64,000 nt of DNA, taken from NCBI GenBank assembly GCA_946699065.1, contig CAMPDV010000310.1:293694-357693 (forward strand), read 5' to 3'. The notes under the pieces are model-generated. The model saw only the letters and a program-made list of their open reading frames with translations, was not told the origin of the DNA and made no database searches. Source of the DNA: Loxodes magnus (taxonomy: Eukaryota; Ciliophora; Karyorelictea; Loxodida; Loxodidae). Positions 1 to 48,872 of the stretch are shown in pieces. The first letter of the stretch is position 1, and each line of letters starts with the position of its first letter. A program made the position numbers and the translations under genes.

Positions 1-7
1 TGGTTTG

Positions 8-215
8 GCCTCGAGACATAAGATTCTTAGACCTTCGACACTGCCTTGGCTTGGCTTGGCTTCGTTTATTTTTAATTCTGGAACTAAAAAGAAATAATAC
101 TGCGAGCTTCATCAGAAGTTGAGGAAGTTAAGTACCCATAATTGACAATGTCGTCCTCTGCTTTGTTGATGCAATGAGACACAATCCTGCCATGTCCTTG
201 GACCTCCAGCAAGTA
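8..215. repeat. Structured boundary repeat (two related hairpin modules)
   Basis: This stretch is richer in G+C than its surroundings. A module near 108-166 runs from cttcatcaga to cctctgctttg; its ends pair (CATCAGAGG with CCTCTG...GATG in copy 2) around smaller hairpins (GGG...CCC and GAC...GTC). A diverged second version lies about 140 bp away at the corresponding place in copy 2 (35790-35855 and 35955-36018). The inner GAC/GTC stem varies in loop and stem length between versions while still able to pair. It could be a structured RNA or a transposon end; I do not recognise a named family. Confidence 0.4.
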
Positions 216-240
216 TTAAAGATTACGAGTATTCTAAAAT

Positions 241-333
241 TATATCAGTATTGAACATTTTTATCAGTACTGAATAATTATACCAGTATTGAACAAGGTT
301 TATCAGTAACAAACATTCTTGTCAGTATGAAAC
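241..333. repeat. Degenerate TCAGTA tandem motif, five copies
   Basis: Five spaced copies of a motif like TATCAGTATTGAAC occur at intervals of about 15-25 bp, some partly palindromic (TCAGTACTGA). They lie just upstream of a hairpin element and of the first gene, so a cis-regulatory role is possible but unproven. Copy 2 has one more motif here. Confidence 0.5.
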
Positions 334-341
334 ATTTTTTT

Positions 342-396
342 AAAGAGCTGCGCACCAACGAGAGTGCTATGCGCTCTATAATCAAATTTATTTATG
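342..396 (+). repeat. Hairpin element with (TTTA)n tail
   Basis: Short dispersed element: AAAGAGC, then GCGCACC, a small loop, GAGTGC and GCGCTCT, then ATAATCAAA and a TTTA-repeat tail. AGAGC pairs with GCTCT and GCGCAC with GTGC/GCGC, giving a bulged hairpin. Related copies are at 8588, 19446, 19804, 28450 (reverse) and 33181 (reverse), and at equivalent places in copy 2. The short tandem tail suggests a SINE/LINE 3' end; a conserved RNA terminator is an alternative. Confidence 0.7.
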
Positions 397-549
397 TAAC
401 ACTTTTTATTACCCTTTAGCTAAAAATTTCTGTACTTTAAATATCTTATTAAGATTGCCTGTCTCCTATAATGAGTTATTAGATAGTATCTCCAAAGTAG
501 TGGGCTGGCTGAGAAATAAAATTGATTGAGACAAAATGTAGTATTTTAA

Positions 550-2408
550 ATGCTTAATGATACTTTTAAAGCCCATGATGGTAAAACTGAAGCTGATGAA
601 TATCTTGTGTTCGTTTTTAATTACCAGAAATAGATGTATCATTACAAACGGACACTGTACCTGTTTTTTATGTAGAACAAATAATGGATGAAATTAGGAG
701 GTGTTCTAGGATTATTACCTGCAGAATAATAGATAATGTATTTTGGAGAGAGAAATTTCCAGAGAACGAAAACTGATTAATATCATCTTTCGTACATCTA
801 GAACCTGACGCATAGAATAGATTGATAAGATCAGAGAGGAAAAAAATTCTCTTGAAATGTTTTGTCTTATCTAGCATGTATTCATAGTATTCTAATGGTT
901 TATAATAGATTAGGGGAAGACAAATATTTAACTTATATACGGGCTATGATAACACTGTATAAGAAATTCTAAGAGAATAATCAGTGAAAGTATCTGACTT
1001 GATAAACTTTTAGTAGAAACTATAAGGAATATAGCTATTAGAAGAACTGATGATGAAGAGAGATGACTCTTGAAGCAGCTATAAAATATAAAGATTATAT
1101 AAACTCTCTTCATTCTAGTGACTTTAACTTCATGCTTTATAATATGGGAGATTCTGAAATAGTAAAACGTTCTTAAATAACCAACTTATGGCTTTTTTTA
1201 TGGTTTATTTTTTTCTCATCAATAAAATATAACATTTGATGGATTATCAAGCCTAAGAATGATTTGGGAAAGAATTGCTAGAAATATTCCAAGTCTTGAA
1301 GTGGAAGGCATATTAGAAAGAGACTAACTGATTTAATATTTACACAAAAAAGCAGAAAATTCAGTGCAAAATACGCTAAGAAGTTGTAGTTTTGTATTAG
1401 ATTGTTTCAGAACAGCCTTTTAGAGACTTAGAGGAATGACTAGCTTATATATCACAAGTAAGAATTTATCTTTAGTAAGGGAAAATTGTAAAGATTTGAA
1501 GGGAATTCTACTCTATATTTAGCCATCTCTCCAAGTGTGAAAAACTCCTTAAGTGATGCAGGAGTTGCAGAATTTATTCTAGGAGCTATTAAACTTAATA
1601 GACATGCTGTTCTAATAGGAGAGCTGATGCTTATTTTAGTATAATCAAATGCTTCTACGCCTCTTTTAGATTAGAGAATACGCTAAAATATTTAAAACGT
1701 TCTTAGTGCTCAATAAACTGAATAGGAAAAGTAAAGCAAACTAAATAAATGTCAAATGTTTATCAAACCTTAAGTTCTCACTTTTCAAATCAAATTCATA
1801 CATCCTAAAATAGCAAAGAGTGAAAAATTATTATTTTAAGTCTAGCAAAGGCGAAGAAAGTGCTTGAGCTCTCTAAGAGATATTAGATGTTTGTAAAGAA
1901 GAAAATCTTTCACTACCTTTAGGAGTAAAATTTATTTTACTTATAATTGAAAGAACAGCTTCTTAAGATAGCGCAGTATATGAGGCTTTCAAGAAAAGAC
2001 TTCCTAAGCTTAAAAGTTACGATATGAATTGGGGAAACGAAAGAAAATCAGTTAAAAAATAAGTAAGTCTTATAATAATGTAATTAGGATAAACTATAAG
2101 AACAAAATCAGGATATACAGCAAAAGTAAATAAAAGAAAGTGAAGAAAAACAGGAAGAAATATAAGAGGAAATTGAGAATAATATAGAAAAAGGTATTTT
2201 AATAGTAGGAATCTTCAACCAAGAAAAAGAAAAAATATGGTAGCAAATGGAAGATGAGACAGGATGTCCTATATGTTTTACATCTTTCTCATAAATATTG
2301 AAAGTTGCTTTGCATGATGATCCACGTCATTTGAAATGTGAAATATGTCTATAGAGATTGAATTTTTGTCCTCTATTAGATAGAAACTTTAAAAACATTT
2401 TTAATTAA
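550..2408 (+). CDS. Helical protein with C-terminal RING-like zinc finger
   Basis: I do not recognise the full protein. From about 621 one frame gives a solid helical sequence (starting LPEIDVSLQTD) to about 1090. A second block, SLRMIWERIARNIPSLEVEG, starts near 1250 and runs to 2062. A 25-nt intron (2063-2087, GTAAGT...ATTAG) then joins it exactly in frame to a Glu/Gln-rich coiled coil and a C-terminal finger: CPICFTSF, a His-rich linker, HLKCEICLQ, CPLLD. The finger suggests an E3 ubiquitin ligase (inference). The start and the joins before 1250 are unresolved; 550 is the first plausible ATG. TAA/TAG are Gln and TGA is Trp throughout. Confidence 0.6.
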
Positions 2409-2729
2409 ATTATCAATCTTAAATTGAATATTCTAACACTAATTATAAGCCTTTATTGAAGCAATATTAAAAGCTTAATTTCATTAAGATTATTAACTTT
2501 AAAATTTTTAATTTAATAATTTAAATTGAAAAATAAAATTTAGATTTCAAAACTTAGAATACAAAAACGTTTATGATGCTTTCTTAAAAGTTATAAAACT
2601 TGGTAAGCTTTTTTAAAACTAAATTTTATTTAAAGAGTTTTAATCTAATAATTAATTAGTTTTAAATTATTAACTTTATTGAGTTTTAAGTTTCTTCTAG
2701 CTTGATAATTATAAATTACATCAATTTAT

Positions 2730-3660
2730 ATGTAGCCAAAAAGAATAAACATTCAATAGGGCTTCTTTACCACCTCTTCCAAAGACAAAAAGGAGGAGAG
2801 GAAGCGAGATGCCACTTCTTATAACTTCAAGTCTTTAATTTAATTGTAATCAACTTTTTGATCAGCCAAAAAAATAATAAAAGACCTAACAACTTCCAAA
2901 TCGGGCTAAATGACAAAATATTCCACAAACTCTTAACACGGAAAAGATACCTCGAAAACAACAGAAAATGTTATTGCATGACAAGTTAAGATCATTTAGC
3001 TTCAATTACGAGCAAGTTGATGTAGCGTAGTTTGCATTGATGGTGGTGAATCTCCATGAAGAGGTTTAAAGTTGAAATACTTGAACGAAAAAACTAATTT
3101 TCAAGCTAGAAGAAAATAATTAAATGGACGGGGATTGTATAGACAAAAAAAACTCAATAGATGTGTTCTTCAGCATCCAACACCACAAAGATAAGAACAA
3201 AACTTAGTCGAGGGATTAAGTAGCGAAATAAGAATAGGAAATTCAAATCCTAAAAGATCAAGAATGGAATAGCTGAATAATGGATTTAACCCAATGGTTG
3301 CCGAATACTAAGCTTAACCTCGAATGAGACTAATTCCGATCAGGAAGAGATGCTCTTGATACAGAAACCAATAACACCTATATCAGAACAGTCGGAAGTT
3401 TCAATAGAAATAGCGGGACTTTTAATAAACAAAGCAAACAGAAAAAATTCGGCTAAAAAACATTTTTTGCAGAAAGAATGTATTATTTATAAGAGGAAGT
3501 AGATGGAGTTATAACCAAGACTTGACAGGAATGTAGGATGGAAAACCTATTAAAAAACCCGCGAATGGGAACGTATAATCTTCCTGTTACCCCCAAACAT
3601 TTTTGTGAAAAATGAGGAGTTTAAAGCGATGTACTTGATAAGATGAAATTCCCTAATAAC
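2730..3660 (+). CDS. Lys/Glu-rich protein with gag-like N-terminus
   Basis: The first ATG gives MQPKRINIQQGFFTTSSKD followed by KKEERKR. This matches the N-terminus of the CCHC gag-like protein at 23610 (GFYTTSFQAKKEERKQE). A second shared motif is TEKIPRKQQK here against TEDLPKKQK there. The C-terminal half is clear from 3124 (MDGDCIDK) through WIMDLTQWLPNTK to LLKNPRMGTYNLPVTP. No zinc knuckle is visible. The frame changes between the N-terminal block and the TEKIP block, through an intron or indel I could not place. Copies 1 and 2 differ by one C near 3592, and the copy-2 frame (KNEEFKAMYLI) reads better. Confidence 0.55.
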
Positions 3661-8644: not shown

Positions 8645-11040
8645 GTTCTTTTATTTTAATGTTTAGCTTAATTTAAAATATTTAAAAAAACAACAATTTA
8701 GTAATTAAGCCTTCAAATAGTATTTAATAGTATCTTCATCAGTTTTTACTATGTAATTCTATCTTTTTATTTTTTCTTTTATAATAATTAAATTAAAATG
8801 CAGAGCAGTTAGATTATTCTATAGTGTTAGCCTAATTTTTTTGTCGTTCTTAATTTGTATATTTATTTTATAAAATGATATATTCTGATGCTAAATTAAC
8901 ATATTCTATTGTGTTTTTAAAATTTGTATCATAATTATATAAATTTATTTTATTTAATATAAATATTTATTTTTATTTAAAATTATTAGTATCTTTTATT
9001 ATGTTATTAGATTTAATTTCCGCAACATTTTTATACATTTTTAAAAGATTAACAATATTAAAAAATTTTAGTTTTATAGATTTCAATGTAGTTTTTTATA
9101 GTAATATTAGTTAATATTTAATTATTTTTAATTAACTTCTAAAATTGTTTGGTTTGAAAATAAAAATATTTCAGTTAACTATAATTAAATTTTAAATTTT
9201 TACAGTTAATATTATTAAACACTTAACTTAGATTTAAAATAATTGTTGTGAAAGCAATGCATTAATAATAATAAATTTTACCTTAATATATTAGTTTTTT
9301 TCTAGAATAAACAAATATATTTATTAAAATTTTTCATATCTTCTGCTAAAAAAATGTTTTCTTTCATTATAAAAAATTAAAAATTTTTAAGTTTTTATTG
9401 GTGTATGAATAAAGATTCATATGATATAGTCTAAAAAATTTAAATTTTTATTGCTATTATATTTTTTTCTCATTTTATAATTTAATATTTGCAATTAAAT
9501 TATTTTTAGAAGAAAATAAATTTTCTGATTTTTAATTTGTTTTTTAGCAATTTTTAATTCTTAAATGAACATTAAAATATTTATTATTTTTTAATATTTC
9601 TCAATGAAATATTTATCATCTTTATCACTATTAAGTATAAAAAACTAAATTAATTAATTATTATTAAAAAAAATGTATATAGCATCAGTATAATAAACAA
9701 ATATTTTTATTAAAAACTTAGAGTAAAAAAATTAAATTAAATTATATTTTTTTAATTATTAAAATATTAGTCTATCTTTAAAAGTTCCTGTAGTAAATCT
9801 AAAATAAAAAAACAAAAATATAATTATAAAAATATTTTTTAATATTCCTGATCTCTATATTGTGCATTATCTAAAAAATTCAAAATGGTTTACTTTAATA
9901 AGAATGACTTTAAACTTAAAAACTTGATTCGAAATTTCTAAAATTTTTGTTCCATCCGAAAAATCTTCTATAGTAAAATTCAAAGCGAAAAATAAAAATT
10001 AAATTTTTACATCTTAAATCGATTTTATCAGTTAAGCAAAAATTTACTGATATAGATTATAACTTTCTTAGCCTCACCTCCACTCAAATTATAAAAAATT
10101 ATTTTATTTAAATTAGATTAAAAAAATTTAATTAATAATTAATTATCTTTACTTTTTGAATTTTTCCAATTCATAATCTAAAAAAAAAATTGATTACTAA
10201 AAATCTATAAATTTTATCCTTCTTTTAAAATTCCAAAAAAAAATTTTGTAAGTCTGAAAATTTTCCTGTAGTGTAAAACGCTGAGCAAAAAAACAAAATT
10301 AAAATTTTCACAAATTCTAAACAAAAAACAATTTATATTCAAAAAAAAAATTAATTATTTTAATTATTTTAATTATTTTTAATACTTTAAATAATTTAGA
10401 AATTATCTAATACATATTAAAAAAAAAATTTATATTAGAAAATCTTTAAAAAACAAAAATATCTTTCTCATTTCTTTACAACTACACTCTTTCTGTCCTT
10501 TTATTTTAAAAAATATCTCAGTCTTAATTTACACAATTCTTATCCTTTTACTTTCTTTACCTTTTTACACTTTTATCACTTTTATCACTTTTAGAAAGTA
10601 AAAACAATATAACCTTCCTCTAATTACTCTTTAAAAATATACTTTTACCTTTAAAAAAAATAAATCCTTAACAACTACTTATATTATTATTAAACTACAA
10701 TACAAATATTCTAACTACAATACTTAAAAATACATTATTAAAAAATAACTTAAACATTTTATACTCATTCTCCACACTCATACAACCTTATACAAAATAA
10801 AAAACAAATAAAAAAATATAATAAAAATATCAATTATAATAATATCAATTATAATATCACTTCATAATAAAAAAAACACAATAATATATATTCAAATTAT
10901 AAATTAAGATATATTAAAGATATACAAGATATTTTTAAATATATTTAGATATACTAAAATATACTAAGATATACTATTTTTAATCATTAATTACTTTAAT
11001 ACCCCTTATATATAAATACTTAATTAATAAACTTATATTT
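8645..11040. other. A+T-rich spacer with a thrice-repeated motif
   Basis: No gene could be supported. A degenerate block of about 65 bp recurs near 9775, 9948 and 10245: ttttgttcc(a)tc(t)gaaaa, ttcctgtagt, then a(g)cgaaaaa(t/c)aaaa. A short CTTTTATCA repeat near 10570 has one more unit in copy 2. C-rich, G-poor sequence from 10.45 to 11.0 kb leads into the 16-bp repeats. Confidence 0.35.
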
Positions 11041-11152
11041 AGTAGAGTTCAAATTAAGCAGAGTTTAAATTAAGCAGAGTTTAAATTAAGTAAAGTTCAA
11101 ATTAAGCAGAGTTCAAATTAAGCAGAGTTCAAATTAAGTAGAGTTTAAATTA
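11041..11152. repeat. 16-bp tandem repeat, 7 units
   Basis: Seven head-to-tail units of about AGCAGAGTTCAAATTA (variants AGTAGAG, AGTAAAG, and TTTAAA for TTCAAA), starting every 16 bp. It lies just 3' of the RING-UBL-micro-exon gene, probably in its 3' untranslated region. Copy 2 has eight units. Confidence 0.9.
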
Positions 11153-11171
11153 AGTATTTAAAGTCATTCAC

Positions 11172-13108
11172 TCACTCAGAATATTTCACAGCCATTCGAT
11201 TCTTCAATGAGTCCTATTTTAAACTCATTAAAACACTAACTCACCCCCTTTATAATAACCTTAAACTAACATACATTCTATTTAACATAATTAATAACTC
11301 ACTTCCTATTTTGATTATTCTAAACCTACGATCTAAAAAACAGAAAAAAAACTATAAATACACCTTACATACTATCAATATTAATAAATACACTCTAAAT
11401 TGGAAAATTAAAATACTTACCTTCTATATGTTTAAAGAATATTAAAATACTTACATTCTATATGTTTAAAGAATATTAAAATACTTACCTTCTATATGTT
11501 TAAAGAATATTAAAATACTTACATTCTATATGTTTAAAGAATATTAAAATACTTACCTTCTATATGTTTAAAGAATATTAAAATATTTACCTTCTATATG
11601 TTTAAAGAATATTAAAATATTTACTCACTATATGTTTAAAGAATATTAAAATATTTACTCACTATATGTTTAAAGAATATTAAAATACTTACATACTATA
11701 TGTTTAAAGAATATTAAAATACTTACATACTATATGTTTAAAGAATATTAAAATACTTACATGCTATATGTTTAAAGAATATTAAAATACTTACATACTA
11801 TATGTTTAAAGAATATTAAAATACTTACTCTCTATATGTTTAAAGAATATTATAATACTTACTCCCTATATGTTTAAAGAATATTAAAATACTTACATAC
11901 TATATGTTTAAAGAATATTAAAATACTTACGAACTATATGTTTAAAGAATATTAAAATACTTACTCCCTATATGTTTAAAGAATATTAAAATACTTACCT
12001 TCTATATGTTTTAAAAATGTGACGTACTTCCTAAAATTATTTATATAGTAAACTTACCATCTAATAATACATTTAACTTTTAAACTTACTATATCTCATT
12101 TGAAGCTATTCCACATCGACAATTTATAAACTCGATACTGATTAACCGTTCTTCAGTTTAGTATTGTTCTTTAAGATGTCGAGAGTCCATGATCGTAACT
12201 CAGTTTATTGTCAGATTTATTCTTTTATCTACCTTATCGTTGTTTCTTATTTGACCTAGAGCTTTAATTTCTTCTTGTTCGGCGATACGATGGTTATACT
12301 GATATCCTATTTTTTTGTCTACTTAGGCTTCTTCTAAGGTTGAGAAATTGGCTAATTAGGCTGCACTACTGGCGTTACTTATTAGAACTAGATTAATTAA
12401 CCTTATAACTAAGTCAACTATTATTACTGATTCTAGACTTAATCATTCAACTTCTATATCTCACTCCTCAAATAATCATTTTCCTTAACCATTTACTCTT
12501 TAATCAACTTATAATTGTCCAACTCCTCAAAAACATTAACCGATACCCTCACATCGATGATCCTCTAAACCTCATCTAACAATCTTAACACCTTAGACTC
12601 ATACTTAGAAATGTCCTAACCTTAGTAATTCTAATGGTTATTACTAATAATTATTACAAATAGCTATTACTTACCTCTAGATTTTTAAGAACCTTAACTA
12701 CTCCTATATTTATCGATCCTAGTCAAACAACTACCTTTATAAGCCAATATTGCCCTTTAAAACGTAACTACTCACGTGCCTAATCAACTACTAGATGAAA
12801 GTAAATTAAACCTTAGACAATTAAGTCTAAGCTTAACGCAATCTCAGTGATTGATTCTCCAACAATGATATACTCTCCATGATACTCTTTTACTCAAGAT
12901 ACTTAAGTAACTAACTGTCTTCTTACAACTTTGAAGGATGAATCTTATAAACTTGCTGACAATTGGCACATTTGATATTTTTGGTTTTTAGATACTTCAA
13001 TTGAATGCAATGATAACACATATCATGCTTACATGGCAACAACATGGGAAGCTTATCCTAACCGTCGAAATCTCCGTTACAAGATTGACATTAAACAACC
13101 TAGGACAT
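11172..13108 (-). CDS. RING-coiled coil-ubiquitin-like protein with micro-exon tail
   Basis: ATG at 13108 gives MSQVVQCQSCNGDFDGQ. A RING finger follows (LPMLLPCKHDMCYHCIQ, KCANCQQVYKIHP), then about 110 residues of coiled coil. A 31-nt intron (12644-12674, GTAAGT...TTATTAG) restores the frame into a Leu/Gln coiled coil (LRSEIQKLNDQVQNQQQQL), a Pro/Lys linker and a ubiquitin-like fold (ISITIVSPNKKKLKLQ, TIRQIKEQIW, LKNNTKLKNGQSVSSLQI). This exon ends at 12090 with one base of a split codon. Next come 26 3-nt exons and a final exon (11213-11172) reading GLIEESNGCEIF then TGA. RING plus UBL suggests an E3 ligase or ubiquitin adaptor (inference). It is a paralogue of the genes at 27062 and 30069. 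Confidence 0.75.
11214..12089 (-). other. Chain of 26 three-nucleotide exons and 27 introns
   Basis: Read on the minus strand after the UBL exon. Introns: 12061-12089 (29 nt), 12031-12057 (27), 12002-12027 (26, GTACGT), 17 of 31 nt in the core array, then 11395-11420 (26), 11372-11391 (20), 11333-11368 (36), 11306-11329 (24), 11278-11302 (25), 11248-11274 (27, ends AAAG) and 11214-11244 (31). Every gap between them is exactly 3 nt. Flanking triplets are ATG (12058), GAA (12028), AGT (11392), TAT (11369), ATC (11330), GAA (11303), AAT (11275) and GGG (11245). The flanking introns are unrelated in sequence yet keep GT...AG ends and 3-nt spacing, so the pattern is not just a by-product of the tandem repeat. 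Splicing is inferred, not shown. Confidence 0.7.
11421..12001 (-). repeat. 34-bp core array: 31-nt intron plus variable codon, 18 triplets
   Basis: Seventeen 34-bp units plus a final triplet. The constant 31 nt on the minus strand starts GTAAGTATTTTAATATT and ends AAACATATAG. The variable triplet (minus-strand sense; plus-strand start given) is AAG at 11421, AAT 11455, AAG 11489, AAT 11523, AAG 11557, AAG 11591, TGA 11625, TGA 11659, TAT 11693, TAT 11727, CAT 11761, TAT 11795, AGA 11829, GGA 11863, TAT 11897, TTC 11931, GGA 11965, AAG 11999. Few intron variants occur (GTAAATATT beside TGA units; one TATAATATT), so most variation falls in the triplet. Confidence 0.95.
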
Positions 13109-24470: not shown

Positions 24471-24920
24471 CCCTCTAATAATTTATTATTAACTTAAAAA
24501 TTTTTTTTTATTGGTTTACATTTTATAAACTAATAATTTCTTCTTTTCTTTATATCATGAAAATATTTGTTTTTACTTTTTACTTTAAAATTATTTCGCT
24601 TATTTATAAAACAAAAAACTCATTTGAGAATTAATTTTTTTAAATAAATTATAGTATTTTTGGATTTTCTAAATTAATAGTAAACTTTATCTCCTAATTA
24701 TTTTCATACATATAATTTTTATTTTATATTATGATATACTTTATAAATATTTAAAAATGTCTTTTTATTATTTAAAATATAAAATTAATTTTATGTTTCT
24801 TTCGTAATAAAGTTTACAAATTAATCTCTTAACTCATTCCTTACTTGAAATCAAGACTCTAAAGCTTTCACTTTTTGACATGCTAACAAACCTTATCTAA
24901 TTTTATTAATAATTTTATCT

Positions 24921-27062
24921 TACTTGCAACACATCCTACACATTTCACTTCCTTATTATGCCATCCTTCGCTTCTGATATTAATCATCTATTGTCACTAG
25001 TCAATGATACTCCACATACTTCTTTTGTATATCCTTCTATTGTTTATATACATTGTCCTGCTTAAAATCCCATAGTTTGATTATATTATCATAACTACCA
25101 CTTATTATATAGTTATCATCATTACTTATTTTGATATTTCATATGCATTTCATATGCCCTCCTAATGTCTATATATATTGTCTAGTTTGATTTTCCATCT
25201 TCGAATTTTATAATCACTTGATTAAGGTGAACCATAATATCCATTACTTGATATCAAACAACTGTTGTTCTTTGATATTGCAAAACTACCCACCAATTCT
25301 GTATGACCCTATAAAGAACACACACATAAACTAGTAGAAGCACTCCAAATCTTAATAGTCTTATCTGCTGATCCCAAAATTATAAACTTGTCATCGCTTA
25401 AAAATATAATCGAATACACTCATCTAAAATTTCAGAAAGAACCTTAAGACATCAGTCAGAAAGGAAGTTCAAAATTCGAAAAGTTGTATCTAAATTTCCT
25501 GAAATTATGACCTTGCCGTCACTTAATTACACTACAGAAGTAACAGAATTTGCGTGACCTCTCATCACACTCAAACATTTTCCCGTAATTCCGTCCCATC
25601 TCCTTATAAATGCAAGTCAGTTTCCGGAAACTATGATTTTACTGTCACTTGATATTGCTACAGCTTAAGCATCAGATGTGTGACAACTCAACACTCTAAA
25701 GCACTCCCCTATAATTCCGTCCCATCTCCACACAGTTTAATCTCCACTTCCGGAAACTATGACCTTACCGTTATTATCACTACAGCTCAGACATAATACG
25801 TGTGACCGGTAAGAATGTGAGGATATTCAGATGAGATTGAAGGTAGATTATCGTTGGATAAGTCGCAGTTGACGAATTTGGAATTTTGAAGATTCGATGA
25901 AGTTAGATTTGAGTTGGAGAAATTAAAGTTAGTGAATGTAGTGTACGAAAGGTACGATTTAGTTAAGTCGATGTTCTGGAAATTTTATCGGGTAAATACG
26001 TAATTCATGTAATTTAAAATAATTATGACTTTGGTAGCTGCTTATTAAATTTAAGGTTAATTCCTTTCTAGATTTAAAATTTATAGCATCCAATGTTGGT
26101 TCTATTCAGATTATAGTTAAACTAAATCAAAAGATTTTCCGTTCTTTGATTGATTTGAATTATATTTATGAGATTCTTAATTATTGAATCTAAATCTACT
26201 CAATTATTTTGAATTTCATTTAATATTTTCCATAAAAACTATATATTTATCTTCTTGCTCTATTATAAATATTAATTTAATTTTTAATAGCTAGTTCTTA
26301 CTCCATTTATATCTTGAGATTTACTTAATCTAACTAATCTCTCACCTGAATAAATTTTTATTAAGTGATCAATAACTAACTCTATATCTGCTAAACCTAA
26401 TTCACTAATTGCTTTATACAAACTTATTCTATTTGATTGCCTTTTTACTTTTTTAATTTTTAACTCTTAATTTGTTATTTTCCTAATTATATTTTCTTCT
26501 TAAAGTTCATTAGATTCCTTATTTCAATTTATGCTTTTTAAATTTAATTATACGTCTTTTCATTTAACTAATCCAATCTAAATTCTGAATGTAAACTTTA
26601 CCATCTCCTACTTTTATCTATTTTAAAATTTTAATAATTTAATATTTTCTTATTTATATGTAGTTACTAAATTTTTTAACTCTCTTTAGATATTTGAAAA
26701 GTTAGCGAAATACTAATTTTCTAAATCTTATATAAGCTTATTAACTAAATTAAGCTTTGCTCTTTTTAAGTTTTATAATCCTACATTTAACTCATTTTCC
26801 TGAATTTGCATAAATTCTAAATTATTTAAAGATAAATTTATTTAATGATATTTAATAACTTTTCTTCACTTCTAAGTTAGGCAGGATGTATTTTAGTATT
26901 TTTTTCACAATTTGTAATTGAACATTAGATTTACTTTTACTATTAAAATTATTTTTAAACACATTCGTAGCATAATTAGTGATTACAAGGAAGGATCATT
27001 GGAATCTTTACTTAAATATAAAATTCACTCTTACAATCTCAACATTAGCATTTTACTGACAT
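24921..27062 (-). CDS. RING-coiled coil-pentapeptide-WD40 protein (frame breaks)
   Basis: ATG at 27062 gives MSVKCQCWDCKSEFYIQ with a RING finger (PMILPCNHQLCYECVQ, CSITNCEKNTKIHP). A coiled coil follows (LNLVNKLIQDLENQYFANFS), then a helical region (KAISELGLADIELVIDHLIK). From 26008 come pentapeptide-type repeats (NFSNSNLTSSNLQNSKF, NCDLSNDNL) and at least six WD40 blades (VYSIIFLSDDKFIILGSADK, TIKIWSAS, DNYIISGSYDNIIKLWDF). Single-base frame changes occur near 25780, 25425 and 25090, identical in both tandem copies. RING plus WD40 recalls TRAF7-like E3 ligases, in which WD40 blades bind partners (family knowledge). Confidence 0.7.
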
Positions 27063-29873: not shown

Positions 29874-30068
29874 AATTAATTTAATATTATTATTACTGAG
29901 TTTTAATTCTAACTATTAAATTATAGTTCTTTATATGCTTAGTATATTGATAAATAAGAGAATTTTTAAGCATTAACTGATGTTAAGTGCTAAAATAAAA
30001 GTAGCAAGTTTAAGAGTTTAAGATATTATTTAAAATCTAATTTTTAATTAATAAAAATAATAGTTAAA
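29874..30068. promoter_or_regulatory. A+T-rich leader of the RING-WD40 gene
   Basis: 195 bp of A+T-rich sequence between two plus-strand genes; the only place for the RING-WD40 promoter unless the two are co-transcribed. No specific motif recognised. Confidence 0.25.
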
Positions 30069-32887
30069 ATGTTCGTAAACATCAAATGTAAAGCTTGTAA
30101 CGGAGATTTTGATGACTAGGTGAAGGTTCCTATGATACTTGAATGTAGTTCATAAAATGTATTAAGAGTGTATTCATAACTAGTTCTTAAGGTCTAAATA
30201 AATCTAATGTTTGGATATTAACTGCAAAATTCATACTAAATCTCACCTACTTAATTATAAAGTGATAAACTATTAATAGACACTATCAAGCAAAGCTTTA
30301 AATAATCAAATATAGTATAGTTAAAATCATTAGAGAATAGAGTAAGTTAAGAGTTATAGAAGATAAAAAAGATAAAGCTGGCTATAGTAAATAAACTTCT
30401 AGAGGACCTCGAAAATTATTTATTTACAGATAGTTCTAAAATATATGAAGAACTATAAGTCACTAAGTAACAACAAAGAAGGAGATAAATAAATTACAGG
30501 AGTTATAAAGCTAATTGAAATGGAATAAACGACATGTTGCTTCAAATTTAGAATATTCCTAAATAATTTAAGAAGTTTAAAGTGCAATATTAAAAGCTTA
30601 GCAGGCCTATATTGTTTTAATTAACCACGACTAAAATTATTTTTAATTAAGCAATAACTTTAAATGTAAGATATAAGATTACCGTAGACAGATAGAATAA
30701 CATAAAGAGATTATTAAACATTAAACGAATTAGATAAAACTATTATCAAGCTAGTTAATGAAATTTTAAAATATATCAATCTAAGAAAGAGACTAATTAA
30801 AGTAGATGTACCAAGAATTCTATAAAGAATATTTATAAAAACCAGAAGTAACTTTAATATAAATTTCAGAGGTAATGGATAAAATCTTAAGAATCATAAA
30901 TTTAATGTACTTATTTTAAAATATTTATATAGAAACAAAACAGTAAATAATTAATAGAAAGCTATTAATTAATTTAATTAATTTTAAGATTAAGGTATCT
31001 TTTTATACACAGATCAAATAAGGTAGGGACATACAAAAAATATATTATCTGTAACTATATCTAGAGACAAAAATGAATTGTTTCTGTAAGCGATTATAAT
31101 AAGATAAAAATATGGGACTTTAATAGTGACTAATTAAAGAGTACTTTGAAGGGACATTCAGGTTCTGTTTTAACTGCATCTATATCGAGTGACAGCAACT
31201 ATATAATATCTGGAAGAGATTACAATACTATAAAGATATGTGATTTAGTGTCCGGTTAGTTAAAGAGTACTTTATTTGGACATAATAGTTCTGTTTACTT
31301 AGTAGTTCTAACAAATGACCAGAAGTGAATAGTTTCTTGTATTTATGATAATACGATAAAAATTTGGAATTTCAAAACTAATTAATTAAAAGTTCCTTGT
31401 AGGGACATACGAGTAAAGTTTTATCTATAGCAATTTCAAGTGAAAACAACTATATTGTATCTGGAAGTATAGATAATACAATAAAGATATGAAATTTACA
31501 AGCTAACTAGTTAAAGAGTACTTTGAAGGGACATAAATAATCTGTAAATTATGTAGTAATATCAAGTGACCAGAGAAGAATCGTTTCTGGAAGTTCTGAT
31601 AAGATGATTAAGATATGGAATTTTAAGACTGGATAGTGTATAAGAACAATAACAGGAAATTAAGGTTGAATAGAAGTACTTACATTGACAAGCGACAATA
31701 GTTTTATAATATCAGGAAATGGAGATAAAACAATAAAGATATGGGAATTCTAAACAGGAGAATGTGTATGTACTTTAACGGGGCATACAGCTGAAGTAAG
31801 GACTGTGGTACTTAGTAGTGATGACTAGTGAATAACATCAGGTAGTTTGGATAAAAATGTGAGGAAGTGAAATATGTAGAGAAAGTATGTAAATAGCATA
31901 TTGAACAAGTAAGTAAAGGTAAAATATTTTAGTTCAGATTTAAAAGAGAATATCTAGGGAAGGGAGAAAAATTTAGAAGGAGAGTAGATGAGAAAAAAAT
32001 AGAACTTTAAGAAGAAAAATGATAAATTTAAAAAATTTAAATAAATAAAGGATATATATGCAAAGCTATTTAATTATAAAAAGAGGATATATGAAACCAA
32101 TGAAAGAATAATTAAGTTTCTAACTATAAAAATTAAAAAAAAAGTAATTAATTTAATAATTTAAATTTATAAATTTGATAAATATAAAAATGAGAATCAA
32201 AAAAACTTTATATACTTAATGGAAAGGAAGAATACATCTTAAAAAGAGAAAATTATCAAATATTTTTTAATGGAGAGTTGAAATTATAAAAAGAGAGTAG
32301 TAAAGCATTATTAAAAGTGCATAATTTGATTTATAAAAATTAGGAGTTTTATTTAAAATCTAAATATGGAAAATAATTTTAGAATTATTTATTACTTAAA
32401 AATTATATAAAGAGCATTAGCTAGAATTAAAAAAGAAAGGTTATTAAATAATTAAAATATATTAAAATTGTTGTAATTAAATTTGAATTAAACTGCTAAA
32501 AACGAGTAAATAAATAAGGAGGAAATCTTGAGCTAATTTTTTAGAAGATATTATATAAAGAAAACGTTTAAGTAAATAAAAAGATTTAAGAAAAAATATT
32601 TACTGGTATACAAAAGTGAAAGTTAATAAAAATAAATTAAGAAATTTATGTTTAAAAAGTAAAGGAACAGTAATTTGTTAATTTCTACTTTCTTAATAAA
32701 AAATTATTTTTTCGATAAAATTAAAAAAATCAAAAGATAAAATATAAAAATAGTTAAAATATATGTAAAATAATTTAAAGCAATGTATTAACTCACTGAA
32801 TTTAGAGATGTTTATAAAATTAATTACTTTTTATTAAGTTTCATTGAACCTCGAAAGAAATTAAATAATTAAAAGTCTATTAAAAGT
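30069..32887 (+). CDS. RING-coiled coil-WD40 protein (TRAF-like), with frame breaks
   Basis: ATG at 30069 gives MFVNIKCKACNGDFDDQ and a RING finger (PMILEC, HKMYQECIHNQ, KIHTK). Next are a coiled coil (KLAIVNKLLEDLENYLFTDS) and seven WD40 blades from about 31030 (GHSGSVLTASISSDSNYIIS, DNTIKIWNFKT, GHTAEVRTVVLSSDDQ). TGA stands at the blade Trp in several places. A helical tail follows (RALARIKKERLLNNQN, KDKIQKQLKYMQNNLKQ) to about 32887. Single-base breaks: an extra T near 30152 inside the RING, and a missing base near 31074 and near 31390, both in short homopolymers. Decay, sequence error or frameshifting cannot be separated here. The architecture resembles TRAF7-type E3 ligases. Confidence 0.7.
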
Positions 32888-34036: not shown

Positions 34037-35025
34037 TTATTTTTGTAAGATGAAAAGCAAAAAATATCTTAAAAAATAAAAAATAATATAACAAAAAAAA
34101 TTTAAGATAAAAATTTTTAAAATTAAAAACAAGAAAATCATAAGATAAAACTGAAGCCTAAAACAATAAACATAAATTAAGCCTAAACTGAAAAACAAAA
34201 ACTTGAAGAAAAATAAAAAAATAAAATAAAAGAAAAAAATATAAAAAATAAAAAGACATAAGCAAGAAATATAAAAACAAATAGCTAGAAACAAAAAAAC
34301 TAAAAACTAAAACCTACAAATGAAAAAAAAATTATAGAAAATTATAAATAAAATGCAAGCAACAAAAGAAAGCTTAAAAAAAACAAAAAAAAATATAGAC
34401 GAAAACAAGTAAATCAAAAATAAAAGTAAAGAAAAAACTAAAAACAAAAACCAAAAACCAATATTTAAAATTAAGAAACCAAACAACAACATAAAAATAA
34501 GAGCAAGTAACCAAAAACAAAAACAAAAGTAAAAAGAAAAACTAAAAACTAAAACAAATAAACAAAAAACAAAAAACAAAAAACAAAAAGCCAAAATCGA
34601 GAAAAATTAACCAAAATCAAGATATCTAAAACCAAAATAAAGAAATCAAATACAAAAAACTAAAAGTTAGAAACTAAAAACTAAAAGCAAAAAAACAAAA
34701 ATCTAAATCAAGAACAAGAAACCAAAAACAAAAACAAGAAACTAAAAAGTAAAAAGTAAAAACTTAAAAAAACCAAGAACCCAAAAACCAAAAACTGAAA
34801 GCAAAAAAACAAAAATCTAAATCAAGAACAAGAAACCAAAAACCAAAACCAAGAAAAAGAACAAAAAACAAAAAACAAAAACAAGAAACCAAAAAGTAAA
34901 AACCAAGAAACCAAAAACCAAAAACTAAAAGCAAAAAACAATAAACCAAAAACCAAAAACCAAAAACTTAAAGCAAGAAACCAAAAACTAAAAGCAAAAA
35001 ACAAGAAACAAGAAACCAAAAATTA
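34037..35025. repeat. T-poor CAAAAA low-complexity tract
   Basis: About 1 kb built from degenerate AAACCAAAAAC, AAACAAGAAACC and AAACTAAAAGC units. T is scarce on the plus strand throughout, most strongly from 34440 on. Read on the minus strand it gives artefactual Phe/Leu/Trp-rich frames, which I do not take as genes. On the plus strand it would be a Lys/Asn/Gln/Pro-rich protein. The extreme strand asymmetry is the notable property. The CCAAAAA core recalls ciliate telomere-like repeats but is too irregular to call one. Confidence 0.8.
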
Positions 35026-35219
35026 AATACTATTTTCATCCTTTTTGCTGCTTTTCCAACATTATAATTTAAATTTCTCATATTTACTTTCTTTTACTCT
35101 TTTTATTATATTAATAATAAGATTCCGCTTTTATCAATTTTCTTTTTACATCTTATAAATTTTTACGTTTATTAAATTTCTAATTTATTTTATACTTCAT
35201 ATTTATTTTTATTTGTTTA
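35026..35219. other. A+T-rich spacer
   Basis: Short T-rich stretch between the T-poor tract and the coiled-coil gene; composition switches sharply at about 35030. No gene supported. Confidence 0.35.
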
Positions 35220-44487: not shown

Positions 44488-46890
44488 GTTCTTTTATTTT
44501 AATGTTTAGCTTAATTTAAAATATTTAAAAAAACAACAATTTAGTAATTAAGCCTTCAAATAGTATTTAATAGTATCTTCATCAGTTTTTACTATGTAAT
44601 TCTATCTTTTTATTTTTTCTTTTATAATAATTAAATTAAAATGCAGAGCAGTTAGATTATTCTATAGTGTTAGCCTAATTTTTTTGTCGTTCTTAATTTG
44701 TATATTTATTTTATAAAATGATATATTCTGATGCTAAATTAACATATTCTATTGTGTTTTTAAAATTTGTATCATAATTATATAAATTTATTTTATTTAA
44801 TATAAATATTTATTTTTATTTAAAATTATTAGTATCTTTTATTATGTTATTAGATTTAATTTCCGCAACATTTTTATACATTTTTAAAAGATTAACAATA
44901 TTAAAAAATTTTAGTTTTATAGATTTCAATGTAGTTTTTTATAGTAATATTAGTTAATATTTAATTATTTTTAATTAACTTCTAAAATTGTTTGGTTTGA
45001 AAATAAAAATATTTAAGTTAACTATAATTTAATTTTAAATATTACAGTTAATATTATTAAACACTAAACTTAGATTTAAAAATAATTGTTGTGAAATCAA
45101 TGCATTACTAATAATAAATTTTAGCTTAATATATTTAGTTTTTTTCTAGAATTAACAAATATATTTATTAAAATTTTTATCTTCTGCTAAAAAAATGTTT
45201 TCTTTCATTATAAAAAATTAAAAATTTTAAGTTTTTATTGGTGTATGAATAAAGATTCATATGATATAGTCTAAAAAATTTAAATTTTTTTTGCTATTAT
45301 ATTTTTTTCTCATTTTATAATTTAATATTTGCAATTAAATTATTTTTAGAAGAAAATAAATTTTCTGATTTTTAATTTGTTTTTTAGCAATTTTTAATTC
45401 TTAAATGAACATTAAAATATTTATTATTTTTTAATATTTCTCAATGAAATATTTATCATCTTTATCACTATTAAGTATAAAAAACTAAATTAATTAATTA
45501 TTATTAAAAAAAATGTATATAGCATCAGTATAATAAACAAATATTTTTATTAAAAACTTAGATTAAAAAAATTAAATTAAATTATATTTTTTTAATTATT
45601 AAAATATTAGTCTATCTTTAAAAGTTCCTGTAGTAAATCTAAAATAAAAAAACAAAAATATAATTATAAAAATATTTTTTAATATTCCTGATCTCTATAT
45701 TGTGCATTATCTAAAAAATTCAAAATGGTTTACTTTAATAAGAATGACTTTAAACTTAAAAACTTGATTCGAAATTTCTAAAATTTTTGTTCCATCCGAA
45801 AAATCTTCTATAGTAAAATTCAAAGCGAAAAATAAAAATTAAATTTTTACATCTTAAATCGATTTTATCAGTTAAGCAAAAATTTACTGATATAGATTAT
45901 AACTTTCTTAGCCTCACCTCCACTCAAATTATAAAAAATTATTTTATTTAAATTAGATTAAAAAAATTTAATTAATAATTAATTATCTTTACTTTTTGAA
46001 TTTTTCCAATTCATAATCTAAAAAAAAAATTGATTACTAAAAATCTATAAATTTTATCCTTCTTTTAAAATTCCAAAAAAAAATTTTGTTCCGTCTGAAA
46101 ATTTTCCTGTAGTGTAAAACGCTGAGCAAAAAAACAAAATTAAAATTTTCACAAATTCTAAACAAAAAACAATTTATATTCAAAAAAAAAATTAATTATT
46201 TTAATTATTTTAATTATTTTTAATACTTTAAATAATTTAGAAATTATCTAATACATATTAAAAAAAAAATTTATATTAGAAAATCTTTAAAAAACAAAAA
46301 TATCTTTCTCATTTCTTTACAACTACACTCTTTCTGTCCTTTTATTTTAAAAAATATCTCAGTCTTAATTTACACAATTCTTATCCTTTTACTTTCTTTA
46401 CCTTTTTACACTTTTATCACTTTTATCACTTTTATCACTTTTAGAAAGTAAAAACAATATAACCTTCCTCTAATTACTCTTTAAAAATATACTTTTACCT
46501 TTAAAAAAAATAAATCCTTAACAACTACTTATATTATTATTAAACTACAATACAAATATTCTAACTACAATACTTAAAAATACATTATTAAAAAATAACT
46601 TAAACATTTTATACTCATTCTCCACACTCATACAACCTTATACAAAATCAAAAACAAATAAAAAAATATAATAAAAATATCAATTATAATAATATCAATT
46701 ATAATATCACTTCATAATAAAAAAAACACAATAATATATATTCAAATTATAAATTAAGATATATTAAAGATATACAAGATATTTTTAAATATATTTAGAT
46801 ATACTAAAATATACTAAGATATACTATTTTTAATCATTAATTACTTTAATACCCCTTATATATAAATACTTAATTAATAAACTTATATTT
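44488..46890. other. A+T-rich spacer with repeated motif, copy 2
   Basis: Equivalent of 8645-11040, with the same thrice-repeated block (near 45615, 45790 and 46085). One motif keeps gttccgtctgaa where copy 1 has gtaagtctgaa. An extra CTTTTATCA unit lies near 46430. Confidence 0.35.
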
Positions 46891-47018
46891 AGTAGAGTTC
46901 AAATTAAGCAGAGTTTAAATTAAGCAGAGTTTAAATTAAGTAAAGTTCAAATTAAGTAAAGTTCAAATTAAGCAGAGTTCAAATTAAGCAGAGTTCAAAT
47001 TAAGTAGAGTTTAAATTA
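46891..47018. repeat. 16-bp tandem repeat, 8 units
   Basis: Copy-2 version of the 11041-11152 array with one additional AGTAAAG-type unit. Confidence 0.9.
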
Positions 47019-47037
47019 AGTATTTAAAGTCATTCAC

Positions 47038-48872
47038 TCACTCAGAATATTTCACAGCCATTCGATTCTTCAATGAGTCCTATTTTAAACTCATTAAAAC
47101 ACTAACTCACCCCCTTTATAATAACCTTAAACTAACATACATTCTATTTAACATAATTAATAACTCACTTCCTATTTTGATTATTCTAAACCTACGATCT
47201 AAAAAACAGAAAAAAAACTATAAATACACCTTACATACTATCAATATTAATAAATACACTCTAAATTGGAAAATTAAAATATTTACTCACTATATGTTTA
47301 AAGAATATTAAAATATTTACTCACTATATGTTTAAAGAATATTAAAATACTTACATACTATATGTTTAAAGAATATTAAAATACTTACATGCTATATGTT
47401 TAAAGAATATTAAAATACTTACATACTATATGTTTAAAGAATATTAAAATACTTACACCCTATATATTTAAAGAATATTAAAATTCTTACATACTATATG
47501 TTTAAAGAATATTAAAATACTTACACCCTATATATTTAAAGAATATTAAAATACTTACATACTATATGTTTAAAGAATATTAAAATACTTACTCTCTATA
47601 TGTTTAAAGAATATTATAATACTTACTCCCTATATGTTTAAAGAATATTAAAATACTTACATACTATATGTTTAAAGAATATTAAAATACTTACTCTCTA
47701 TATGTTTAAAGAATATTAAAATACTTACTCCCTATATGTTTAAAGAATATTAAAATACTTACCTTCTATATGTTTTAAAAATGTGACGTACTTCCTAAAA
47801 TTATTTATATAGTAAACTTACCATCTAATAATACATTTAACTTTTAAACTTACTATATCTCATTTGAAGCTATTCCACATCGACAATTTATAAACTCGAT
47901 ACTGATTAACCGTTCTTCAGTTTAGTATTGTTCTTTAAGATGTCGAGAGTCCATGATCGTAACTCAGTTTATTGTCAGATTTATTCTTTTATCTACCTTA
48001 TCGTTGTTTCTTATTTAACCTAGAGCTTTAAGGTCTTCTTGTTCGGCGATACGATGGTTATACTGATATCCTATTTTTTTGTCTACTTAGGCTTCTTCTA
48101 AGGTTGAGAAGTTGGCTAATTAGGCTGCACTACTGGCGTTACTTATTAGAACTAGATTAATTAACCTTATAACTAAGTCAACTATTATTACTGATTCTAG
48201 ACTTAATCATTCAACTTCTATATCTCACTCCTCAAATAATCATTTTCCTTAACCATTTACTCTTGACTCAACTTATAATTGTCCAACTCCTCAAAAACAT
48301 TAACCGATACCCTCACATCGATGATCCTCTAAACCTCATCTAACAATCTTAACACCTTAGACTCATACTTAGAAATGTCCTAACCTTAGTAATTCTAATG
48401 GTTATTACTAATAATTATTACAAATAGCTATTACTTACCTCTAGATTTTTAAGAACCTTAACTACTCCTATATTTATCGATCCTAGTCAAACAACTACCT
48501 TTATAAGCCAATATTGCCCTTTAAAACGTAACTACTCACGTGCCTAATCAACTACTAGATGAAAGTAAATTAAACCTTAGACAATTAAGTCTAAGCTTAA
48601 CGCAATCTCAGTGATTGATTCTCCAACAATGATATACTCTCCATGATACTCTTTTACTCAAGATACTTAAGTAACTAACTGTCTTCTTACAACTTTGAAG
48701 GATGAATCTTATAAACTTGCTGACAATTGGCACATTTGATATTTTTGGTTTTTAGATACTTCAATTGAATGCAATGATAACACATATCATGCTTACATGG
48801 CAACAACATGGGAAGCTTATCCTAACCGTCGAAATCTCCGTTACAAGATTGACATTAAACAACCTAGGACAT
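47038..48872 (-). CDS. RING-coiled coil-UBL protein with micro-exon tail, copy 2
   Basis: Copy-2 version of the gene at 11172-13108, with the same RING, coiled coils, 31-nt intron, UBL and final exon. A short run near 48032 differs (aaggtcttctt versus atttcttctt), with a few other substitutions. The main difference is the micro-exon chain: 23 rather than 26 exons, with several different triplets. Both versions remain in frame to the same final exon. Confidence 0.7.
47080..47853 (-). other. Chain of 23 three-nucleotide exons, copy 2
   Basis: Same organisation as 11214-12089, with the same heterogeneous introns on both sides of a core of 15 triplets. The total of 69 nt again keeps the phase of the UBL exon into the final exon at 47079. 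Confidence 0.7.
47287..47765 (-). repeat. 34-bp core array: 31-nt intron plus variable codon, 15 triplets
   Basis: Fourteen 34-bp units plus a final triplet. Triplets in minus-strand sense (plus-strand start): TGA 47287, TGA 47321, TAT 47355, CAT 47389, TAT 47423, GGT 47457, TAT 47491, GGT 47525, TAT 47559, AGA 47593, GGA 47627, TAT 47661, AGA 47695, GGA 47729, AAG 47763. GGT occurs only here, always with an intron ending ATATATAG. The unit at 47695 (AGA) corresponds to 11931 (TTC) in copy 1: all three bases differ while the introns on both sides match. Confidence 0.95.

Follow-up and report, generated by a model that had tools for sequence, protein, structure and literature searches.

Chains of predicted single-codon exons between tiny introns in a hypervariable RING and ubiquitin-like protein family of the ciliate Loxodes magnus

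Microexons of 3 nt exist in animals. In plants, exons down to 1 nt have been proven, as in APC11 (PMC4674806, PMC8831610), and such few-nucleotide exons, demonstrably spliceable at 1 to 3 nt, lie between ordinary GT–AG introns much like the triplets that we describe here. Microexons come as one or two per gene, however, a reported rice gene having two adjacent ones of 5 and 12 nt (PMC8831610), whereas the arrays of Loxodes magnus, as parsed from the genomic sequence, would each string together some 17 to 125 introns, separated by hypervariable exons of 3 nt, at 30 loci. The MEG genes of Schistosoma are alike in being made largely of short exons, 3–81 bp, with variable products, but differ in having introns of up to 5 kbp and secreted proteins (PMC10526429). 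The Loxodes arrays show no such long introns; their introns are tiny, as a rule 17–37 nt, almost all their predicted exons are exactly 3 nt, the protein begins with a RING finger and carries a ubiquitin-like (UBL) domain, and we saw no homology to the Schistosoma genes.

Two further systems share parts of the pattern. The WD repeats of the fungal NLR-type HET-E/NWD genes are homogenised, polymorphic in number and hypervariable at a few codons per unit (PMC4986451); there, the repeat itself is coding, whereas in Loxodes the homogenised part would be the intron and only one codon per unit would be coding. In recursive (ratchet) splicing, successive splice sites are used stepwise through a long stretch (PMC13149111), but recursive sites leave 0 nt and the Loxodes array would leave 3 nt per step; at one Loxodes locus, c78b, the ATG exon has been lost exactly, and the resulting junction, with AG abutting GT, is in effect a recursive site. 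No chain of single-codon exons was described in the open-access journal papers searched, and the available portions of the L. magnus genome paper (PMC11441545) make no mention of such arrays.

The window, that is, the whole stretch of 64,000 nt analysed, holds two copies of an array of this kind within genes of one layout: RING finger, coiled coil, UBL domain and predicted microexon tail. The features are as follows.

12675..13108, minus strand: exon 1, RING finger and start of the coiled coil (MSQVVQCQSCNGDFD...); Pfam zf-C3HC4, E 4e-5, 23.8 bits, cut-off 21
12644..12674, minus strand: ordinary 31-nt intron, GTAAGT...TTAG, joining two reading frames
12090..12643, minus strand: exon 2, coiled coil and ubiquitin-like domain, ending in phase 1; Rad60-SLD/ubiquitin-like profile
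12002..12089, minus strand: 5' edge of array copy 1, introns 1–3 (29, 27 and 26 nt) with predicted triplet exons ATG and GAA; from the parse, shared by most of the 30 loci
11424..12001, minus strand: hypervariable core, introns 4–20 (17 × 31 nt) with the triplets between and beside them; triplets vary, introns are constant
11214..11423, minus strand: 3' edge, last core triplet, introns 21–27 and triplets AGT TAT ATC GAA AAT GGG
11176..11213, minus strand: predicted last exon, (G)LIEESNGCEIF then TGA; parsed in the phase of exon 2
47854..48872, minus strand: RING, coiled-coil and UBL exons of copy 2, from the alignment of both copies
47080..47853, minus strand: array copy 2, 24 introns and 23 triplets in 774 nt, from the parse

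The initial annotation had read the minus strand from 12089 to 11214 as 27 GT..AG introns of 20–36 nt enclosing 26 triplets, and our re-parse confirmed this letter for letter, returning the 876 nt and the 26 exons of 3 nt that it had claimed; a greedy parse puts the last acceptor at 21 nt, and the full-length parse closes the last intron at 11214 (31 nt). The UBL exon had likewise been said to end with one base of a codon and to carry this phase through to a last exon that reads sensibly. Both statements hold: because exon 2 ends in phase 1, every 3-nt exon keeps phase 1, and the tail, GLIEESNGCEIF, is confirmed. The predicted tail peptide of copy 1 is NGKGILWKISLLLMKEEQEQELYRKWGLIEESNGCEIF, and right behind it the segment TGAGTGAGTGAATGAC (11163–11178) offers TGA in all three frames; GTGAGTGAATGAC, a part of this segment, recurs in most of the paralogues printed. 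By size (at most 51 nt) and GT–AG flanks, the 26 triplets between the 27 introns classify as predicted microexons.

Of the domains, the RING finger scores above the curated zf-C3HC4 cut-off, a role as a ligase being putative. The UBL profile covers 70 of its 72 positions with E 1e-4 and 22.4 bits when TGA is translated as tryptophan, just below the curated cut-off of 23.8, which it clears with TGA read as C, R or Q. AlphaFold2, given a single sequence, modelled the UBL piece with low confidence (pLDDT 54), and the model was left unused. A protein search with the RING/UBL protein gave 1010 candidates, none at E 0.001. The 31-nt intron between exons 1 and 2 aligned in five of the six loci compared, c78b being the exception.

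Chance gives a poor account of the chain. In 20 shuffles of the 64-kb strand, the longest run of introns separated by 3-nt exons was 3 in 19 cases and 4 in one, against an observed 28, a figure that counts one chance intron upstream. Introns 4–20 are near-identical 31-mers, and introns 1–3 and 21–27 lie outside this tandem repeat; the initial annotation had stated that the 3-nt spacing persists there, which is upheld both by the parse and by chance tests on the non-repeat edges. The 3' non-repeat part (210 nt) contains 7 introns in a row, a number reached in none of 2000 shuffles (maximum 5); strong donors, GTRNGT, number 9 in 301 nt of non-repeat sequence against 0.17 expected; and, with GT found at +3 after AG in 11 of 267 local cases, the 8 non-repeat junctions would arise by chance with a probability of about 8e-12. 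A fixed walk that starts from GT at the end of exon 2, takes the first AG at least 18 nt on, skips 3 nt and requires GT next gets through all 27 introns of copy 1 and all 24 of copy 2; if the minimum is lowered to 17 nt, the walk halts after 23 and 20 steps, respectively. Viral contigs used as background gave 34 single matches to a two-intron pattern, with longest chains of 3–6 and one of 11 in a plain repeat, and no match to the core 31-mer. That the edge introns are decayed copies of the core was also considered; on alignment, only intron 3 (p 0.03), intron 22 (p 0.04) and, weakly, intron 21 (p 0.06) resemble it, and the idea is unsupported for most of them.

The array belongs to a large gene family, which we searched for in 705,730,643 bases on 7,843 contigs. 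The 31-nt core intron has 759 exact copies in the genome (control, 0), and exon 2, the main exon, has at least 41 matches at 84–100% identity. We read the arrays at 30 loci, comprising the two window copies, four on C78, one more on C310 and 23 others, with a parser that allowed exons of 3 nt only, so that any break would appear as an early stop. The chain ran unbroken from intron 1 to the GGG exon in 30 of 30 loci, representing 25 distinct arrays, although paralogue counts such as these are not independent. Altogether the loci contain 761 introns, 450 of them of 31 nt; they measure 20–37 nt, except for two irregular ones of 55 nt. The longest array (L046, C78:231496–235762) has 125 introns and its triplets include 87 AAT and 14 TCT; in the reading phase these would give a glutamine run encoded by TAA (from AAT) with scattered phenylalanine. 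In c78b the core introns vary from 29 to 32 nt and the exons stay 3 nt. The same locus, L044 (G000:C78:113000-122900), has its UBL domain and array joined to a different RING/coiled-coil half, and the 3' module thus appears to move between genes. Constraint on exon 2 is not strong, given a median pN/pS of 0.6 (210 pairs, four arrays left out), and a genome-wide search for a spliced retrocopy came up empty.

When the phase of exon 2 is carried on, every one of the 25 arrays would encode a variable stretch that leads into Y-x-[E/K]-W-G-L, and 24 of 25 reach an in-phase TGA within the stretch read, c78b being without one. After the GAC triplet, many paralogues (L043, L044, L045 and others) have an extra small intron that is missing in others, and it alters the tail to GLIDW, GLWN or GLIN in place of GLIEESNGCEIF. 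The 3'-edge triplets are conserved across the family and in a second subfamily, to which we turn because within the first (subfamily A) the shared motif could simply reflect DNA kinship; subfamily B is the test. At C310:199531 (minus strand), a gene of comparable RING/coiled-coil/UBL layout continues into a chain whose introns are different and in which 23 of 24 exons are 3 nt and one is 6 nt. The parser used for subfamily B also admitted exons of 0, 6 and 9 nt, and the three loci read gave 23/24, 37/39 and 27/29 exons of 3 nt. The terminal triplets, TAT ATC GTG AAT GGG GAC in B and TAT ATC GAG AAT GGG GAC in A, agree in 17 of 18 letters, and the sole difference amounts to CGA/CGT in the phase of exon 2, both arginine. 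The 3'-block introns, in contrast, are barely alignable between the subfamilies (score 15.0 against 2.3 shuffled, p 0.013). Exon letters kept, intron letters lost and a synonymous change are the behaviour of coding exons. The predicted ends of the three subfamily B proteins, YREWGLMK (C310:199531), YREWGLRS and YCEWGLRS, show Y-x-[E/K]-W-G-L in 3 of 3. The doubt whether the spacing is a repeat artefact, which the initial annotation had itself addressed, is answered by one architecture in 30 loci and by a subfamily that keeps the terminal triplets and their reading with diverged introns. The core intron of subfamily B has 6,078 exact copies in the genome, which in the places listed are spread over many contigs and usually recur every 32 nt (29 + 3); by extrapolation, if the remaining copies are alike, there would be some thousands of single-codon exons.

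Within the core, introns and triplets have evolved in opposite ways. Outside c78d, the 277 core introns of 31 nt fall into 16 forms and are 99.3% identical, with a mean entropy of 0.047 bit per site; the three exon positions reach 1.82, 1.79 and 1.76 bit, and 34 kinds of triplet occur among the 335 of the core. In the window cores, it takes at least 10 changes to link the 9 triplet kinds, whereas 4 intron sites vary (P 2e-8, or 1e-6 with a generous count). Between paralogues whose exons 2 are 94–98% alike, agreement in the order of core triplets is no better than in random lists (0.27 against 0.25; 51 pairs), whereas their edge exons are 0.88 identical. Pairs at least 98% alike share 0.77 of their core triplets in order (6 pairs) and differ by whole units gained, lost or exchanged. 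The array thus behaves as a concerted repeat that is homogenised while chosen codons are hypervariable, a pattern that fits selection or a raised mutation rate of the triplets alike. GC is more frequent in triplets (17/51) than in intron interiors (25/203; p 7e-4), and codon usage by phase does not single out the reading phase.

Core triplets of a kind that would create a competing splice site nearby are few or absent. TAG, CAG and GAG occur 0 times among the core triplets against 20.2 expected, GTN 3 times against 20.8 and NGT 6 times against 31.7; when each kind is counted once per array, the figures are 0/12.1, 2/13.5 and 4/20.4 (observed/expected). Rarity of the GTN and NAG sets is what splicing predicts, whereas NGT and TAA were included post hoc; AAG is common (25 against 13.8 expected).

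The genetic code is that of karyorelicts (NCBI table 27), in which TAA and TAG encode glutamine and TGA is tryptophan or stop; code 27 and a 706 Mbp macronuclear assembly are given for L. magnus (PMC11441545). One gene of the window encodes WD40 repeats and has TGA at positions of tryptophan; its Pfam WD40 score is 138.8 bits with tryptophan against 123.9–127.5 with five other residues; the related WDR3 profile scores R and G above W at the TGA of this gene. For the TGA of the window UBL domain, tryptophan (22.4 bits) is the lowest of five residues, C, R, Q and S giving 26.8 to 23.5. Among 25 paralogues, 4 codon columns of exon 2 include TGA, one of which contains TGG 7, TGA 4 and TAT 7 times and another TGA 11 and TAT 9 times; a TGG of the window gene is TGA in c78a. 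In the core, read in the UBL phase, 4 of 311 codons are TGA, against a mean of 9.45 in shuffles, of which 23 in 500 go as low; this depletion is modest (p about 0.05) and does not extend to the other two phases (15/335 and 24/311). The variable part nonetheless contains an in-phase TGA in 5 of 25 arrays (c310e, L067, L074, L075 and L077), and also in L081 of subfamily B; under code 27 such a TGA may be tryptophan, but a stop near the end. The size of the family, the hypervariability of the core triplets and the use of TGA also as a sense codon go beyond what the initial annotation had claimed.

The architecture, the conservation of edge triplets and of phase, the homogenised introns and the scrambled triplets are best explained, we suggest with a probability of roughly 0.85, by the array being a series of real single-codon exons between tiny spliceosomal introns that would encode the C-terminal tail of a RING/coiled-coil/ubiquitin-like protein. 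The tail would read NG-[variable]-(L/I)Y-x-(E/K)-WGL-[short end]-stop. As 3-nt exons are too small for exon definition, the pre-mRNA would probably be spliced by intron definition, and likely stepwise along the transcript. The near-identical core introns would act as DNA repeats at which recombination, slippage or gene conversion adds, removes or swaps units, recombination at the introns being suggested by the differences in copy number and order between near-identical paralogues. Each unit corresponds to exactly one codon position, and any gain, loss or swap of a unit therefore keeps the frame. The outcome would be a peptide that changes quickly while the domain before it and the motif after it stay constant, perhaps with selection for variety acting at the triplets. 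Against this reading count the silent codon usage, the modesty of the TGA depletion and the in-phase TGA of some arrays, the poor fit of tryptophan in the window UBL domain, the c78b array without a stop, the missing retrocopy, the limited constraint on exon 2 and intron size: mapped introns of L. magnus average 19.3 nt, 93% being at most 25 nt (PMC11441545), which places the 31-nt array introns in the upper tail. Introns of Paramecium-like ciliates have a median of 24–25 nt (PMC12862383), but an affinity to these was dismissed, TGA being a sense codon here. Least certain is the function, for which we can offer an analogy: a rapidly changing end on a RING protein with a coiled coil is reminiscent of recognition proteins, and the tail might be a variable binding or recognition end on an E3-ligase-like protein.

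Splicing could also treat the array differently. It could be removed as one (or nearly one) large intron from 12089 to 11214, the triplets being absent from the product; the phases of exon 2 and the tail match and the triplets are symmetric, so that such a skip keeps the frame, and exons of 3 nt are hard to define (PMC4674806). An intron of 866–876 nt would, however, lie far beyond the lengths reported for such ciliates (PMC11441545), and intron sequence would not be expected to keep its terminal triplets, but for a synonymous difference, in two subfamilies whose introns have diverged, nor to be depleted of TGA in the reading phase only; we consider this improbable. A distinctly better chance, though still short of even, goes to splicing that is real but partial, with variable subsets of microexons turning one gene into many in-frame tails. 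All exons being 3 nt and of phase 1-1, any subset would stay in frame, and any product would be terminated by the TGA present in each frame behind the tail. On the other side, orderly splicing is favoured by the shortness and regularity of neighbouring intron pairs. Partial splicing is a variant of the single-codon-exon reading, not its opposite.

Readings without splicing fare worse. As an unspliced minisatellite with a 34-nt unit, coding or non-coding, in or behind the gene, the array would sit well in a genome rich in tandem repeats (PMC11441545); the window copies differ by whole units, and each array length (876 and 774 nt) is divisible by 3, so that unspliced read-through also keeps the frame. 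Yet in the unspliced translation no Pfam domain reaches its cut-off (best E 0.048), and a plain repeat explains neither the 3-nt spacing in the non-repeat edges, nor the confinement of variation to the triplets, nor the absence of triplets that make splice sites, nor the conservation of edge triplets across subfamilies; a control repeat found by pattern (L030, with a chain of 11) has only three triplet kinds, GAA, TAA and TTA. This makes a minisatellite very unlikely, and less weight still goes to the 31-nt pieces being cut from DNA as internal eliminated sequences instead of from RNA. Ciliates do eliminate short DNA pieces, but such sequences are TA-bounded and absent from the somatic genome, whereas the pieces here, judged by eye, end in GT..AG with strong donors and are present in an assembly that we take, from its size, as somatic (macronuclear); no eliminated sequences of the classical kind are reported for L. 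magnus in the sections available of PMC11441545.

If the single-codon-exon reading is true, the arrays represent an architecture in which exon equals codon dozens of times in succession, and the spliceosome would have to handle up to about 125 successive introns 3 nt apart, which would severely challenge current ideas on how introns and exons are defined. The introns would provide homology for recombination without constraining the protein, and coding changes would come as whole, frame-safe codons; part of the genome's tandem-repeat load, such as the copies of the subfamily B core intron, would be genes. More tentatively, and with the odds in our view slightly against it, one may picture a genome-wide single-codon diversity generator of hundreds of genes in at least two subfamilies, with introns as the recombination substrate and 3-nt exons as the payload, the tails serving self/non-self, mating or pathogen recognition by RING-type proteins and exon skipping perhaps adding somatic variety.

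Both window copies lie in a direct duplication, in which positions 1–28231 and 35854–64000 are 97.6% identical. It spans at least 28 kb at a spacing of 36 kb and its divergence is uneven, 3–4% in parts of kb 0–6 and about 0.3% in kb 12–25. Over those 14 kb (kb 12–25) the copies differ at 40 sites, and their arrays differ by three units (102 nt) and in triplet kinds. Directly downstream of each gene is a 16-nt tandem repeat, at 11033–11154 (about 7 copies) and 46887–47022 (about 8.5 copies), with one unit more in copy 2 than in copy 1. Elsewhere in the window, at 30060–31905 (plus strand) and 24826–27000 (minus strand), there are RING-like and WD40 reading frames that are interrupted by frame breaks and have TGA in tryptophan positions; they look like relatives of the RING half fused to WD40 repeats and are possibly decayed. 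The gene at 1–3400 and the other reading frames of the window gave no clear Pfam families. An ordinary 25-nt intron at 2063–2087 (plus strand; GTAAGTCTTATAATAATGTAATTAG) joins two frames of another gene, with a RING-like end, and about 600 nt at 34428–35032 consist of an A-rich tandem repeat with a 7/14-nt unit and a strong strand bias.
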